Below the pieces are notes generated by a model that worked only from the letters and a program-made list of their open reading frames with translations, was not told the DNA's origin and ran no database searches. A stretch of 6,543 bases of DNA from Patescibacteria group bacterium. GTDB taxonomy: Bacteria; Patescibacteriota; Patescibacteriia; UBA2591; UBA6264. Made by a program: the position numbers and the translations under genes. Below, piece by piece: positions 1-6,543 of the stretch; positions within the stretch are counted from its first letter, which is position 1, and each line of letters opens with the position of its first letter. The stretch spans positions 1 to 6,543 of the forward strand of contig JACZVN010000026.1 in assembly GCA_022572625.1 (NCBI GenBank), read 5' to 3'.

Positions 1-525
1 ATTTTTAATAAATTGCTGGGTTATGGTTGAAGCACCCTGAACTTTACGGCCCTGAATAAGGTCAACCAGGATCGCTCTAGCAATGGCCTTAAGATCAAAG
101 CCGGGGTGAGTAAAAAAATCTTTATCTTCGGCCGCTAAAGTAGCCGAAATTAAATGTTGGGGAATTTCGGATAAATCAATCATCGTTCTTCTCTCTTCAG
201 CAAAAATTTCGTAAAGAACCACCTGACCAGTTTGGTCATATATTTTAGTGCTTTGAGAAATTTCTCTTTCTAAAAGTTTTTCTGGATCAGGTAAATTGCG
301 GGTCATCCAAGTTAAACTGATGATTATTACCACACTACCTAATAAAAATAAAAAAATCAGTAAAACAAAAAATTTTTTGATTGAATATTTTTTTTGGCTT
401 GTTATTTTAGGCCGGGTTTTAATTTTTTTTTTAACAAATTTTGATTTTCTGGCCACTGTTTTTTTCCTAATTGGTTTTTTTTGCCATTTAGAAATTTTTT
501 TAGTTTTGCGTTTAGAAATAGGCAT
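1..525 (-). CDS. Class A penicillin-binding protein (PBP1A-like), N-terminal part, cut by window edge
   Basis: The first 175 residues of a bifunctional peptidoglycan synthase are present; the rest lies beyond position 1. Residues 1-50 are a very basic, Lys-rich cytoplasmic tail. Residues about 52-73 form one membrane anchor. A short linker follows, then a glycosyltransferase family 51 domain. Two GT51 signatures are visible: EDKDFFTHPGFD at 133-144, where E133 matches the catalytic glutamate, and GASTITQQFIKN at 164-175. In this family the domain polymerises lipid II into glycan strands on the outer face of the membrane, and a C-terminal transpeptidase domain, not seen here, cross-links them. 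The ATG at 525 opens the basic tail. No clear Shine-Dalgarno sequence precedes it. Whether the transpeptidase half is intact cannot be seen. The GT51 assignment is secure; the exact subclass (PBP1A, 1B or 1C) is not. Confidence 0.93.
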   Translation of the reverse strand, partial: MPISKRKTKKISKWQKKPIRKKTVARKSKFVKKKIKTRPKITSQKKYSIKKFFVLLIFLFLLGSVVIIISLTWMTRNLPDPEKLLEREISQSTKIYDQTGQVVLYEIFAEERRTMIDLSEIPQHLISATLAAEDKDFFTHPGFDLKAIARAILVDLIQGRKVQGASTITQQFIKN

Positions 526-2254: not shown

Positions 2255-3448
2255 ATGGCTAAAATTAATCAACAAAAAATAAAAAACCTGCTTAATCGTA
2301 ATGTTGAACAGATTATTGAATCAACCAATTTAAAAAAGCGTCTTTTAAAAGGAAAAACGCTTCGAATTAAGCATGGAATTGATCCAACCGGACCAAAAAT
2401 TCATCTTGGCCATGCAATCATTCTTTGGAAATTAAAGGAATTTCAGGATCTGGGACACACCATTGTTTTAATTTTAGGAGATTATACGGCTCAAATTGGT
2501 GATCCTTCAGATAAACTGGCTAAACGGCCTTTTCTTTCAGAAAAGCAGGTTAACGAAAATTTAAGAAATTATCAAAAGCAGATTGGCAAGATTTTGAATA
2601 TTAAAAAAGTGGAATGGCATCGGAATAGCGAATGGCTAAAGAAATTATCCATTCGTCAATTAGATGAATTAGCGGAATTATTTAGTGTTCAGCAAATGAT
2701 GGCCCGGCGGAATTTTAAAGAGCGCTGGAAAAAACAAGAAGAAATTTCTATTCGTGAATTTCATTATCCTTTGTATCAAGGTTATGATTCAGTGATGATT
2801 AAAGCAGATTTAGAAATTGGTGGGACTGATCAGCTATTTAATCTATTGGCTGGCCGAAGAATCCAGCCAGCCTATCAGCAAACGCCACAGGATATCATGA
2901 CTTTAAAAATGCTGATTGGTCTAGATAATCATAAAATGAGCAAGACTAAAGATAACGTAATTTATATTACTGACTCACCAACCGAACAATATGGTAAAAT
3001 AATGTCAATACCGGATCATTTAATTAGTCATTATTTTGAACTTTGCACCCCAATTAAAAATAAAGAAATTCAAAAAATAGTTACGGCCATGAAGCAGGGC
3101 GCTAATCCGCGTGATTTTAAAGCTAAATTAGCTTATCAGATTGTTGAATTGTATTATGGAGTAAAAGAGGCCCAAAAAGCAGAACAAGAATTTAACCAAG
3201 TCTTTAGAGACAAACAACTGCCAGCTAATATTCCAACTTATAAAGTAAAGAAACAAACATATAGATTAATCGACCTTTTATTTGAAGCTAAATTAACACT
3301 CAGTAAAAGCGAAGCTCGAAGATTAGTTGAACACGGAGCAGTAAAAGTAGACGGCCAATTAATCAATGACTGGTCTGATCAATTAATTCCTAAAAATGGA
3401 ATGATTATTAAAGTGGGTAAAAGAAGATTTATTAAATTATTAAAATGA
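2255..3448 (+). CDS. tyrS: Tyrosyl-tRNA synthetase
   Basis: A class Ic aminoacyl-tRNA synthetase of 397 residues that activates tyrosine with ATP and loads it onto tRNA-Tyr. The Rossmann catalytic domain (about 30-235) holds the HIGH box as H50-L-G-H53, the tyrosine/tRNA region YPLYQGYDSVMIKADLEIGG (171-190) followed by TDQLFNLLAGRR, and the KMSKS loop as KMSKT (227-231). An alpha-helical anticodon-binding region follows. The C-terminal S4 RNA-binding domain (about 337-397) includes LSKSEARRLVEHGAVKVDG (349-367). The length and the KMSKT loop fit the TyrZ-like bacterial subgroup. The frame is open back to 2042, but the upstream codons cover the HIT gene and its terminator and show no synthetase homology, so the ATG at 2255 is the start. 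No Shine-Dalgarno sequence precedes it. It leads the operon and overlaps galU by 4 nt. Confidence 0.97.
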   Translation: MAKINQQKIKNLLNRNVEQIIESTNLKKRLLKGKTLRIKHGIDPTGPKIHLGHAIILWKLKEFQDLGHTIVLILGDYTAQIGDPSDKLAKRPFLSEKQVNENLRNYQKQIGKILNIKKVEWHRNSEWLKKLSIRQLDELAELFSVQQMMARRNFKERWKKQEEISIREFHYPLYQGYDSVMIKADLEIGGTDQLFNLLAGRRIQPAYQQTPQDIMTLKMLIGLDNHKMSKTKDNVIYITDSPTEQYGKIMSIPDHLISHYFELCTPIKNKEIQKIVTAMKQGANPRDFKAKLAYQIVELYYGVKEAQKAEQEFNQVFRDKQLPANIPTYKVKKQTYRLIDLLFEAKLTLSKSEARRLVEHGAVKVDGQLINDWSDQLIPKNGMIIKVGKRRFIKLLK

Positions 3449-4308
3449 AAATTACGAAAGCCATTATTCCGGTCGCTGGTCTAGGCACTAGATTTTTGCC
3501 GGTTACTAAATCTCAACCTAAAGAAATGTTGCCGATCGTAGATAAACCAGCCGTGCAGTATATTGTTGAAGAAGCAGTGGCTTCAGGGATTAAGCAAATT
3601 TTTTTAATTACCAGTTCGACCAAACGATCCATTGAAGATTATTTTGATTATAATTTTGAATTAGAATATCGGCTTAAAAAGGCCAAAAAATTAAAAGCCT
3701 TGCAAAGTATCCGTCGGCTGTCTAATTTAGCCGAGTTTATTTTTATTCGCCAAAAAGAACCAACTGGCAATGGAGATGCTATTCTTAGGGCTTATGAGTT
3801 TGTTAAAAATGAACCCTGCGCTGTAATGTTTGCCGATGATATAATAGATAGCCGAATTCCTTGCTTAGCTCAATTAATAAAAGTATTTGAAAAGTATCAA
3901 GACTCGGTGATTGCGGTTAAGCGAATAAAAAAAAGTGAAATTAAACATTTTGGCTCAGTAAAAGTTGTGCCTTTGGAAAAGCGAGTTTATCAAATTAAAG
4001 ATATTATTGAAAAACCAAGCCCTGGAAAGGCCCCTTCTAATTTGGGAGTGGTTGGCCGCTATATTATGACTCCAGATTTATTAGAAGCATTATTAAAATT
4101 TAAGCCTAAAAAAGGAAAAGAAAAGGGTATAACTGATGGTCTAAATGCTGTTTTAAAAAAACATCCGGTGTATGCTTGTGAATTTGAAGGGGATTGGTAT
4201 ACTATAGGGAGTAAAGAAGGTTTTTTACAGGCTAATATAATTTTTGGATTAAAAGACAAAGAAATAAAAAAGAATTTAAAAAGTTTTTTAAAAAAACATG
4301 TTTACTAA
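3445..4308 (+). CDS. galU: UTP-glucose-1-phosphate uridylyltransferase
   Basis: A 287-residue cytoplasmic nucleotidyltransferase expected to make UDP-glucose from UTP and glucose-1-phosphate for envelope glycans. The nucleotide-binding signature is AGLGTRFLPVTKSQPKEMLP (11-30), followed by VDKPAVQYIVEEA (32-44). Metal-binding D131-D132 lie in VMFADD. The sugar-phosphate motif EKP is at 189-191, and GRYIMTPDLLEAL is at 204-216. Length is near the usual 290-300. Two positions depart from the common pattern: the GLGHA loop reads GNGDA (108-112), and the late Y-D-x-G motif reads Y-T-I-G (252-255), placing Thr where an Asp is usual. The start ATG overlaps the tyrS stop (ATGA), implying translational coupling. 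There is no separate ribosome site. A related sugar nucleotidyltransferase specificity is possible given the substitutions. Confidence 0.9.
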   Translation: MKITKAIIPVAGLGTRFLPVTKSQPKEMLPIVDKPAVQYIVEEAVASGIKQIFLITSSTKRSIEDYFDYNFELEYRLKKAKKLKALQSIRRLSNLAEFIFIRQKEPTGNGDAILRAYEFVKNEPCAVMFADDIIDSRIPCLAQLIKVFEKYQDSVIAVKRIKKSEIKHFGSVKVVPLEKRVYQIKDIIEKPSPGKAPSNLGVVGRYIMTPDLLEALLKFKPKKGKEKGITDGLNAVLKKHPVYACEFEGDWYTIGSKEGFLQANIIFGLKDKEIKKNLKSFLKKHVY

Positions 4309-5677
4309 AAATACAAAATATAAATTAACGCTAATATTTTTAATCGCTATTTTTGTAATCACTTCAGGACTAGGGTGTAAAGGAACGTCAAAAGATATAA
4401 TTGAAAGAACTAAACCAGTGAATTTGGTTTATTGGCGTACGATTGAAGGTCAAGAAGCTTTCGGATCTATTATCAATGGATTTAAGGTTCTTTATCCTCA
4501 TATTTCTATTACTTATAAGTTAATTCGAGAAGAAGAGTATGAACAGGCTTTACTTGAAGCTTGGGCTGAAGATCGAGGGCCGGATATTTTTTCTATTCCT
4601 AATACTTGGTTAGGAAAATATCAGACCAAGATTTTGCCTTTAGGTATGAGTCAGGAGATAGTAATGGCTAAAAGAATAATCACCGGCACAATTAAAAAAG
4701 AGGCTAAGATTGTGGTTGAAAGAAAAAAAGCCCCTAGTTTAAGAGAGTTAAGGGAGAAATTTGTTGAAACTGTTCCTAAAGATATTATAATCGATAATAA
4801 AATTTACGGGTTGCCGTTATCTTTAGATATTTTAACCCTATATTATAATCGGGATATGCTAAATAGCGCTGGCATTGTTAATCCTCCACAGACTTGGGAG
4901 GAATTTGTGAACCAAGTTCAAGCTTTAGTTCTTCAGGATCGATATGGAGATTTTATACAAAGCGGGACTGCCATGGGTACGGCTAAAAATGTACCTTATA
5001 TGTCTGATATTCTTTCTTTATTAATGCTGCAAAATGGCACACCGATGACTGAAGGTGACGGTCGAGTAACTTTTAACCAATCATTACCCAATGACCCCAG
5101 TTATTTCCCAGCTGAAGAAGCTTTACGATTTTATACGAGTTTTGCCAATCCGGCTCAGGAAATTTATACTTGGAATGAGACCCGACCTGATTCATTAGAC
5201 GCTTTTTTAGCCGGCCAAGTTGGTTTTATTTTTGGTTATTCTAATTATTTATCTTTAATTAAAAATCAGGCTCCTAAATTAAATTTTGATATGGCCAAAG
5301 TGCCGCAAATTACCGGCAGTTTGAAAGAAGTAAATTATGCTCGCTATTGGTTAGAAACAGTTTCCAAGAAAACCAAATATCCTCATGAGGCTTGGGCTTT
5401 TATTTTATACGCAACGGAAACCCAAAATGCTAAAACTTTTGTTGAAAAAACTAAACATCCGACTGCTCATCGAGATTTAATTAGTATGCAGTTGGAAGAT
5501 TTTGATTTAGCTCCTTTTGCCCGCGGCGTTTTAACCGCTCAAACCTGGTACCAAGGCAAAAATTATTCTTTAGCTGAAGAAGCTTTTCAAGAAATGGTTG
5601 AAACCGTTTTAAGGGGTGAAAGATCAGTTAAAGAAGCCATTGATATGGCGGCTAAAAAGGTTAATTTAACCTATTAA
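4298..5677 (+). CDS. Extracellular solute-binding lipoprotein (family 1, sugar-type)
   Basis: A 459-residue protein of the MalE/UgpB-like ABC substrate-binding family, which normally captures sugars or other solutes outside the membrane and hands them to an ABC permease. Residues 1-27 form a basic, hydrophobic lipoprotein signal ending SGLGC. C27 is the likely lipidated cysteine, although -3 is Gly rather than the usual Leu. VNLVYWRTIEG (41-51) opens lobe 1, RGPDIFSIP (93-101) is the typical hinge-side motif, and YGLPLSLDILTLYYNRDML (170-188) with PPQTWEEF (196-203) are hallmark blocks. FLAGQVGFIFGYS (303-315) is the usual late motif. A charged stretch (about 122-160) widens lobe 1. The ATG lies 11 nt inside galU and has no Shine-Dalgarno sequence. 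Two TAA stops follow in tandem. No permease or ATPase is encoded in the window, so the ligand and any transport role are unknown. Confidence 0.88.
   Translation: MFTKNTKYKLTLIFLIAIFVITSGLGCKGTSKDIIERTKPVNLVYWRTIEGQEAFGSIINGFKVLYPHISITYKLIREEEYEQALLEAWAEDRGPDIFSIPNTWLGKYQTKILPLGMSQEIVMAKRIITGTIKKEAKIVVERKKAPSLRELREKFVETVPKDIIIDNKIYGLPLSLDILTLYYNRDMLNSAGIVNPPQTWEEFVNQVQALVLQDRYGDFIQSGTAMGTAKNVPYMSDILSLLMLQNGTPMTEGDGRVTFNQSLPNDPSYFPAEEALRFYTSFANPAQEIYTWNETRPDSLDAFLAGQVGFIFGYSNYLSLIKNQAPKLNFDMAKVPQITGSLKEVNYARYWLETVSKKTKYPHEAWAFILYATETQNAKTFVEKTKHPTAHRDLISMQLEDFDLAPFARGVLTAQTWYQGKNYSLAEEAFQEMVETVLRGERSVKEAIDMAAKKVNLTY
5658..5672. repeat. Short perfect inverted repeat at the end of the solute-binding protein gene
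   Basis: AGGTTAA and TTAACCT flank a single T. It lies over the last codons of the solute-binding protein gene, 12 bp before the pilin-like gene. It is not followed by a T-run and is too tight for a stable terminator loop. It may be an operator half or chance. Confidence 0.3.
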
Positions 5678-5683
5678 TAATCT

Positions 5684-6543
5684 ATGAAAAAATTTTTTCT
5701 TTTATTATTGATCGTATTCATCTTTTCATTGTTTCTTAGTTATACGGCTCAGGCCATAGAACCTCGAAATATCGGGGCCGGCCTAACGAGCACATGTACC
5801 CAATTAGAGTCTGGTAATTGGGATTGTGATTGTCAAGTTTCAAACAAAGTAAAAGATTGTCAGGTCGGTCAGCTCATTACTGATCCAATCTGCGCTTGTT
5901 GTGGTGATTGTACTTTAGATAATTTTTTAGGTCTGGGAATTAACCTGTCTAATATTATTTTAAAATATTTAGGGGTTGTCGCGTTAATGCTTTTTGTCTT
6001 TGGCGGAGTGATTTGGATAACTTCTGGCGGATCGGCGGAAAAAGTTCAGCGAGGGAAGAAAATTATTAGTGGATCAATCATTGGTATGGCCATTGTCATC
6101 GGCGCCTTTTTAATCATTAGGGTTTTCACCGATGTGCTTGGCGTTGAAAAAGACTATTTGACTTATTTAGAAACAGAAACCCAGGATAGAAAAGATGGAG
6201 ATAAAGAAGGCGGAGTATGGCCAACTTGTCCGGCTGGTGACACACTAAGAGAGAATGCTGGCCGACCGTGGTGTTATGGTTGTACCTGGACTGGCGGAGC
6301 TGGGCGCGGTTGTCAAAGCAATGAAGTAAAAGAATACCAAGTAGCACTTAATGCAGCCCAATGTGATTGCGGGGGGGCAGATGGATTTTTTGGTTCTCAG
6401 ACTAAAGAGTGCACCAAGCGATTTCAAAAGGCCTGGAATGATGATTTACAAAGAATGTTTGATGGTCTTAATGAGGAACCGCCGCCATCCTTGGCGCTAG
6501 ATGGTACGGTGGGAGAGAAAACCTGGAGCGTTTATAACGATGA
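5684..6543 (+). CDS. Cys-rich VirB2/TrbC-like T4SS pilin fused to a peptidoglycan-binding domain, C-terminus cut
   Basis: An open frame of 286 codons runs off the right edge. Residues 1-24 are a signal peptide with an A-Q-A cleavage site. Residues 38-76 hold eight cysteines, including CACCGDC (70-76). Two hydrophobic helices follow (about 88-112 and 128-148), joined by a short basic loop, WITSGGSAEKVQRGKK (111-126). This two-helix hairpin is typical of the pilin-like VirB2/TrbC conjugal transfer proteins common in CPR genomes. A linker and a second cysteine-rich segment (182-229) lead into a peptidoglycan-binding-1-like repeat: YQVALNAA, DGFFGSQT (233-240), a CTKRFQKAW block (243-251), then LDGTVGEKTW (272-281). 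Basic residues in the loop predict both ends outside the membrane, which suits disulfides and wall binding. The start is 6 nt after the solute-binding protein stop codon, without a Shine-Dalgarno sequence. It probably acts as an envelope-anchored pilus or secretion component; this is inferred. Confidence 0.75.
   Translation, partial: MKKFFLLLLIVFIFSLFLSYTAQAIEPRNIGAGLTSTCTQLESGNWDCDCQVSNKVKDCQVGQLITDPICACCGDCTLDNFLGLGINLSNIILKYLGVVALMLFVFGGVIWITSGGSAEKVQRGKKIISGSIIGMAIVIGAFLIIRVFTDVLGVEKDYLTYLETETQDRKDGDKEGGVWPTCPAGDTLRENAGRPWCYGCTWTGGAGRGCQSNEVKEYQVALNAAQCDCGGADGFFGSQTKECTKRFQKAWNDDLQRMFDGLNEEPPPSLALDGTVGEKTWSVYND

Follow-up and report, generated by a model that had tools for sequence, protein, structure and literature searches.

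The last gene on a 6543-base contig of a Patescibacteria group bacterium (the window, i.e. the whole stretch of DNA analysed here) encodes a protein that joins a VirB2-type pilin hairpin to a Cys-rich ectodomain and a built-in PG_binding_1 peptidoglycan-binding domain (5684..6543, + strand; 286 codons seen, the 3' end being cut by the contig end). In relatives, this lead pilin comes first in an array whose further members are small pilins, typically 110-160 amino acids long, and stands in a conserved row with the gene of an orphan sugar-binding protein. Neither the peptidoglycan-binding lead pilin nor the associated sugar-binding protein was found described in the accessible portions of the open-licence PubMed Central literature, supplements aside; published work is cited here from such portions. 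Tentatively, we read the gene as encoding the Cys-rich lead subunit of a VirB2-like array, which would fasten a type IV secretion system (T4SS) pilus by its base to the cell's own peptidoglycan. Most likely, the lead pilin would act as a minor subunit that secures the pilus base in this wall. For holding the pilus of such a T4SS in the wall, a wall-binding-type pilin together with a conserved sugar-binding gene provides two named candidate parts.

Domain content of the lead pilin

The window comprises the whole of contig C29 of genome G000 (640 kb in 137 contigs, 75.8% complete). Its lead-pilin frame (5684-6541, +) stays open up to the contig end, with the stop codon beyond it, and the closest homologues (P0001-P0003, 81-94% identity) extend nine residues further at the C-terminus and bear one further, sixteenth Cys. 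The named relatives returned by a homologue search are Patescibacteria, in agreement with the source from the Candidate Phyla Radiation that an earlier note on this DNA had assumed.

Hydrophobic stretches cover residues 1-26, 84-118 and 125-155. The first of them harbours a predicted signal peptide (residues 1-24; 5684..5755, +), whose Ala-Gln-Ala at residues 22-24 resembles a cleavage site when read by eye. Between the other two, segment 112-126 contains four Lys or Arg against a single acidic residue and is bordered on either side by net acidic sequence. By these predictions, the protein combines a signal peptide with two hydrophobic helices and a short basic loop, and stretches and charge are consistent with the topology proposed earlier, i.e. 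both ends outside and the basic loop inside.

The pilin-type hairpin (residues 78-151; 5915..6136, +) has a TSGGS motif in its basic loop and, in the alignment, retains the GG-W-TSGGS motif of the pilin family; an AlphaFold2 model predicts two helices at residues 78-112 and 118-151. Against Pfam T4SS_pilin (PF18895), the window protein taken alone remained below the cut-off of 26.6 bits, with 22.7 bits for residues 93-148 (5960-6127) and 25.9 bits in a whole-genome scan. The match was firm, however, in most relatives: ten of the 12 scanned relatives with a peptidoglycan-binding domain passed (L005, L038, L041, L042, L092, L109, L110 and L127-L129), L040 (23.2 bits) and L126 (26.5 bits) falling short. 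The profile test proposed in the earlier note thus came out in favour of its reading, with the pilin profile below its cut-off in this one protein. The C-terminal domain (residues 211-284, with a short insertion and three Cys; 6314..6535, +) narrowly passed PG_binding_1 (PF01471; residues 212-250, 23.2 bits against a cut-off of 23), as did ten of the 12 relatives more clearly (24.3-59.7 bits), though not L040 (15.0 bits) and L041 (14.9 bits). With the window protein counted, both cut-offs were passed by nine of 13 scanned lead pilins of this kind. The AlphaFold2 model, together with a fold search, gives the C-terminal domain a predicted PG_binding_1 fold, so that hairpin and repeat fold, the two elements expected from the earlier note, both appear in the model.

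Pfam and NCBIfam scans of the window protein returned no catalytic domain. While fold and profile match are shared with the PG_binding_1 domains of endolysins, CtpB, SleB/SleC and L,D-transpeptidases, those proteins have catalytic domains, and the domain described here has an added Cys pattern. The two or three domain-bearing proteins searched against PHROGs match endolysins through this very domain, from which we do not read a phage origin.

Could two hydrophobic helices in a divergent wall-associated protein resemble a pilin merely by chance? The sub-threshold score of the window protein would fit, as would the PDB fold matches of the modelled hairpin, which are not distinctive (Foldseek by itself gave no match at E <= 0.001). 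Besides, a profile of the small pilins run against PDB sequences yielded 11 matches, apparently all to designed proteins (best E 0.0008), and no natural pilin. However, the nine proteins that pass both Pfam cut-offs, a custom hairpin profile that scores the neighbouring pilins at 33-75 bits and the conserved gene order argue otherwise, rendering this explanation highly improbable and close to refuted.

The window protein contains 15 Cys (residues 38, 48, 50, 59, 70, 72, 73, 76, 182, 197, 200, 210, 227, 229 and 243), eight of them packed into the 39 residues 38-76, exactly as had been noted before. Given a background frequency of 0.77% (791 of 103,364 residues, counted in the mapped loci over frames of 150 or more amino acids that contain no more than 12 Cys), the binomial chance is ~1e-8 for 15 Cys in 286 residues and 6e-10 for eight in 39, both uncorrected for the choice of region. 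The N-terminal ectodomain (residues 25-77, eight Cys; 5756..5914, +), with modelled strands between residues 28 and 60, closes with the signature CACCGDC, which is nearly invariant across the lead-pilin family. A conserved Cys linker follows the hairpin (residues 178-212; 6215..6319, +; WPxCP...PWCYGCxWTG...RGCQ in aligned relatives), and the peptidoglycan-binding domain of the lead pilins bears a Cys pattern of its own (LGCxCG..DGxFG..TKxCT) that, to our knowledge, is not typical of other such domains. Across 37 lead pilins, the median was 14 Cys (2-34), against 0 (0-16) in 101 adjacent pilin-like frames, the sequences within these sets being related.

These Cys might either pair or, as a cluster, bind a metal. 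We prefer disulfides because of the predicted export, two DsbA-like Thioredoxin_4 matches in the window's own genome and the way in which Cys 59 and Cys 72 disappear together: both are absent from three alignment rows (P0009, P0011, P0022), possibly through one event; P0064 retains Cys 59 without Cys 72. Cys 229 and Cys 243 are likewise jointly absent from four rows, and five rows lack Cys 229 alone. VKOR was rejected as a general oxidant, being present in only two of 26 genomes of the order.

A conserved row with a sugar-binding gene

Six bases upstream of the lead pilin lies the gene of an ABC-type sugar-binding protein (SBP_bac_8/SBP_bac_1; 4298..5677, +). This arrangement was followed in 23 of the 26 order genomes (the loci of G008 and G011 break off with their contigs, and G020 is without a pilin match) and in a sample of the class, where 53 of 380 genomes matched at 1e-25; 17 of these belong to the order, and 15 loci were read of the other 36, chosen by their pilin match and not by the neighbouring gene. 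A sugar-binding gene, recognised by likeness to the window's own protein, lies directly upstream on the same strand in 22 of the 23 order genomes, the exception being G023, and precedes the lead pilin in all 15 class loci (besides the window: L038-L042, L092, L093, L095, L097, L099-L108, L110, L111 and L126-L140). In 32 of the 37 pairs, no more than 100 bases separate the two genes, which frequently overlap by 4 bases. A second lead-like pilin of G010, on its contig C57, lacks a sugar-binding gene beside it.

Further pilin-like frames accompany the lead in 21 of the 23 order loci (20 of the 22 with a sugar-binding gene, plus G023), G000 and G021 being cut by contig ends. Of the 15 class loci, 12 have such frames, with none in G326, G341 and G355. 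In the window's own genome, contig C75 starts within a small pilin (39.4 bits) and continues with glycosyltransferase-type genes, as found after the array in G003 and G004. C75 therefore probably represents the far side of the gap after the window contig.

The upstream protein passes the SBP_bac_1 and SBP_bac_8 cut-offs of Pfam and matches solved sugar-binding proteins, much like MalE-like solute-binding proteins. Unlike theirs, its gene is linked to pilins, and the BPD_transp_1 permease family was matched in none of the 26 order genomes, against 14 of 14 controls; hence, we regard the sugar-binding protein as lacking a permease partner of this family. Trp 46, 200, 292, 366 and 417 are invariant in the 37 sugar-binding relatives from order and class, and therefore the protein may still bind a ligand.

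Own wall, host wall or membrane anchor

The row resembles published Patescibacterial VirB2-like pilin arrays (PF18895 T4SS_pilin, PF04956 TrbC/VirB2; PMC12102498, PMC10633639) in its hairpin family, its tandem paralogues, the phylum and the genomic presence of a T4SS ATPase gene. It differs in its first gene, which is Cys-rich, bears PG_binding_1 (225-518 amino acids in the 13 scanned) and stands behind a sugar-binding gene. Since 441 VirB2 arrays, each with 2-11 pilins, are on record and 1135 of 1948 assemblies carry pilin genes close to virB4 (PMC12102498), the earlier note needs correcting in that the appendage is not wholly uncharacterised. In a Saccharibacterium, the pilin array is reported to be essential (PMC10633639), and the T4SS with its pilin array to be essential for growth on the host, in a role described as unknown (PMC11665869, PMC12857230); Gram-positive T4SSs had been considered not to form conjugative pili (PMC12857230).

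The window's own genome encodes a VirB4-family ATPase on contig C97 of G000, where a PrgI-like and a TrsD-like frame belong to the same gene row, TrsD being the name for a VirB4-N-terminus-like protein near virB4 (PMC12102498). Both names rest on resemblance to two G005 frames: the PrgI-like frame of G005 scored 25.4 against the Pfam PrgI cut-off of 27, and its TrsD-like frame gave a weak TraC_F_IV match. The VirB4 P-loop family occurs in 22 of the 26 order genomes. No gene labelled VirB4 was found around the arrays, which were followed over at most 20 kb each, the window genome's own virB4 being on another contig. The five T2SSE-family matches over cut-off in this genome likewise all lie off the window contig, and two of the contigs concerned carry type-IV-pilus-like genes, judged by eye; a link of PilT or TadA to the lead pilin was not seen. 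The scan for secretion and pilus ATPases suggested in the earlier note hence bore out VirB4 at the level of the genome, with the T2SSE family unlinked to this gene.

Among known systems, ExeA/GspA and EpsAB of the type II secretion system (T2SS) are also close. ExeA is an ATPase that partners ExeB for a secretin and is not itself a pilin. It sets a T2SS precedent for wall docking through a peptidoglycan-binding domain (PMC4098917), which, along with the predicted topology, the head-of-array place and a PBP1A-type neighbour, is why we favour docking on the cell's own wall. The lead pilin would be exported by Sec and its signal peptide cleaved, the hairpin then being seated in the membrane with both ends outside, where extracytoplasmic DsbA-like enzymes would oxidise the Cys pairs. 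The hairpin might pack with the small pilins of the same row at a VirB3/VirB4 platform, and the outside peptidoglycan-binding domain would grip glycan-peptide strands, thereby fixing the apparatus at its passage through the wall. The sugar-binding protein encoded upstream, without an ABC permease of the usual family, could serve this surface machine as another component that recognises glycans.

The distribution of the peptidoglycan-binding domain weighs against such own-wall docking. A custom profile, built partly from six proteins that it then counts (G000, G001, G003, G004, G005 and G017), detected the domain on nine of the 23 order lead pilins (G000, G001, G003-G006, G017, G023 and G024) and on four of the 15 class lead pilins (G059, G160, G196 and G224). 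Among the 37 lead pilins with a sugar-binding neighbour, 12 bear it, and at least five gains or losses are needed on a tree of the 37 upstream sugar-binding proteins. This coming and going speaks for an adhesin directed at another cell's wall, that is, a tip or surface pilin whose domain would bind the wall of a partner cell, with the sugar-binding protein aiding recognition. The far higher Cys content of the leads compared with their adjacent pilin-like frames would suit such a role, as would very long pilin-domain frames in the order, two of which, when scanned, carried Big_5 or TIG domains. Besides, Patescibacteria that parasitise methanogens are reported to express highly genes for peptidoglycan-binding domains and T4SS pilins, under separate tags, and a role in host attachment has been proposed (PMC10936435). 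Yet the domain is clustered on the tree (shuffled mean of 10.4 changes, with none of 500 shuffles as low as five) and hence not freely exchanged. Moreover, diderm or archaeal hosts have their peptidoglycan hidden or lack it, and the usual target of PG_binding_1 domains is either the wall of the cell itself or a wall under attack by hydrolases. Taken together, a host-wall adhesin appears unlikely, if by no means negligible.

Alternatively, the VirB2-like hairpin might merely anchor Cys-rich surface domains in the envelope and never enter a pilus. Bulky domains flank the hairpin on both sides in the window protein, and open frames of 636-3534 amino acids with a T4SS_pilin-type hairpin, too large for ordinary pilus subunits, occur in at least 18 of the 26 order genomes. 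The array loci read without a virB4, and the three class loci in which a lead stands without small pilins, point the same way. However, pilins of the same family accompany the lead in most order and class loci, and its hairpin keeps the family motif, which makes a plain anchor rather unlikely in our view and leaves the lead subunit of a wall-docked array as the preferred reading. A bolder version would join the sugar-binding protein, having lost its ABC transporter, and the disulfide-clasped, peptidoglycan-gripping lead pilin into a T4SS pilus head that recognises glycans. A conjugation-type machine would thus have taken over an ABC receptor, locking onto the cell's own and perhaps a host's walls and drawing on another cell. 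We consider this improbable.

Seven order genomes have a lead pilin that passes Pfam PG_binding_1, and six of them are without any other match to the family. The seventh is G000, whose other match is doubtful: an apparent fusion of a PilB ATPase with a peptidoglycan-binding domain on contig C76 (L004 196-1170, -) matches PilB only up to the point at which contig C27 starts. Judged by this break, the frame is probably a chimeric contig end. Separately, G007 has a lead pilin without the domain and five PG_binding_1 matches on other frames (L145, L152, L153), two of which share one 1322-residue frame.

Neighbouring genes and further frames

Among the very long pilin-domain frames, four were read (L044:3-7163, L045:7866-15203, L046:2344-7383 and L047:488-3664). 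The hairpin is N-terminal in all four, followed by Big_5 or TIG domains in both of those scanned with Pfam, and three of the four adjoin ParA/ParB genes. These frames may possibly encode giant adhesins borne on a pilin.

Pilin-like frames also occur close to T4SS genes. A 276-residue frame (L048:6596-7426, -) that contains 19 Cys and matches T4SS_pilin below threshold lies in the PrgI-like/TrsD-like/VirB4 row of G005, and pilin-like frames of ~370-440 amino acids stand within some kilobases of virB4 in G013, G014, G023 and G024. Besides, L039 contains a 1727-residue frame (14818-19998, +) that has 65 Cys and is still open where the stretch ends, and for which Pfam gave no match at E <= 0.1.

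Further upstream in the window, galU (UTP-glucose-1-phosphate uridylyltransferase; 3445..4308, +) is a frequent upstream neighbour in relatives, and the N-terminal part of a PBP1A-type peptidoglycan synthase (1..525, -) is a divergent neighbour of the locus in several of them. Between these two, a 273-residue protein (634-1455, -) has no Pfam or NCBIfam match at E <= 1, and a frame resembling it occupies the same place in G004 (L041:3158-4087).
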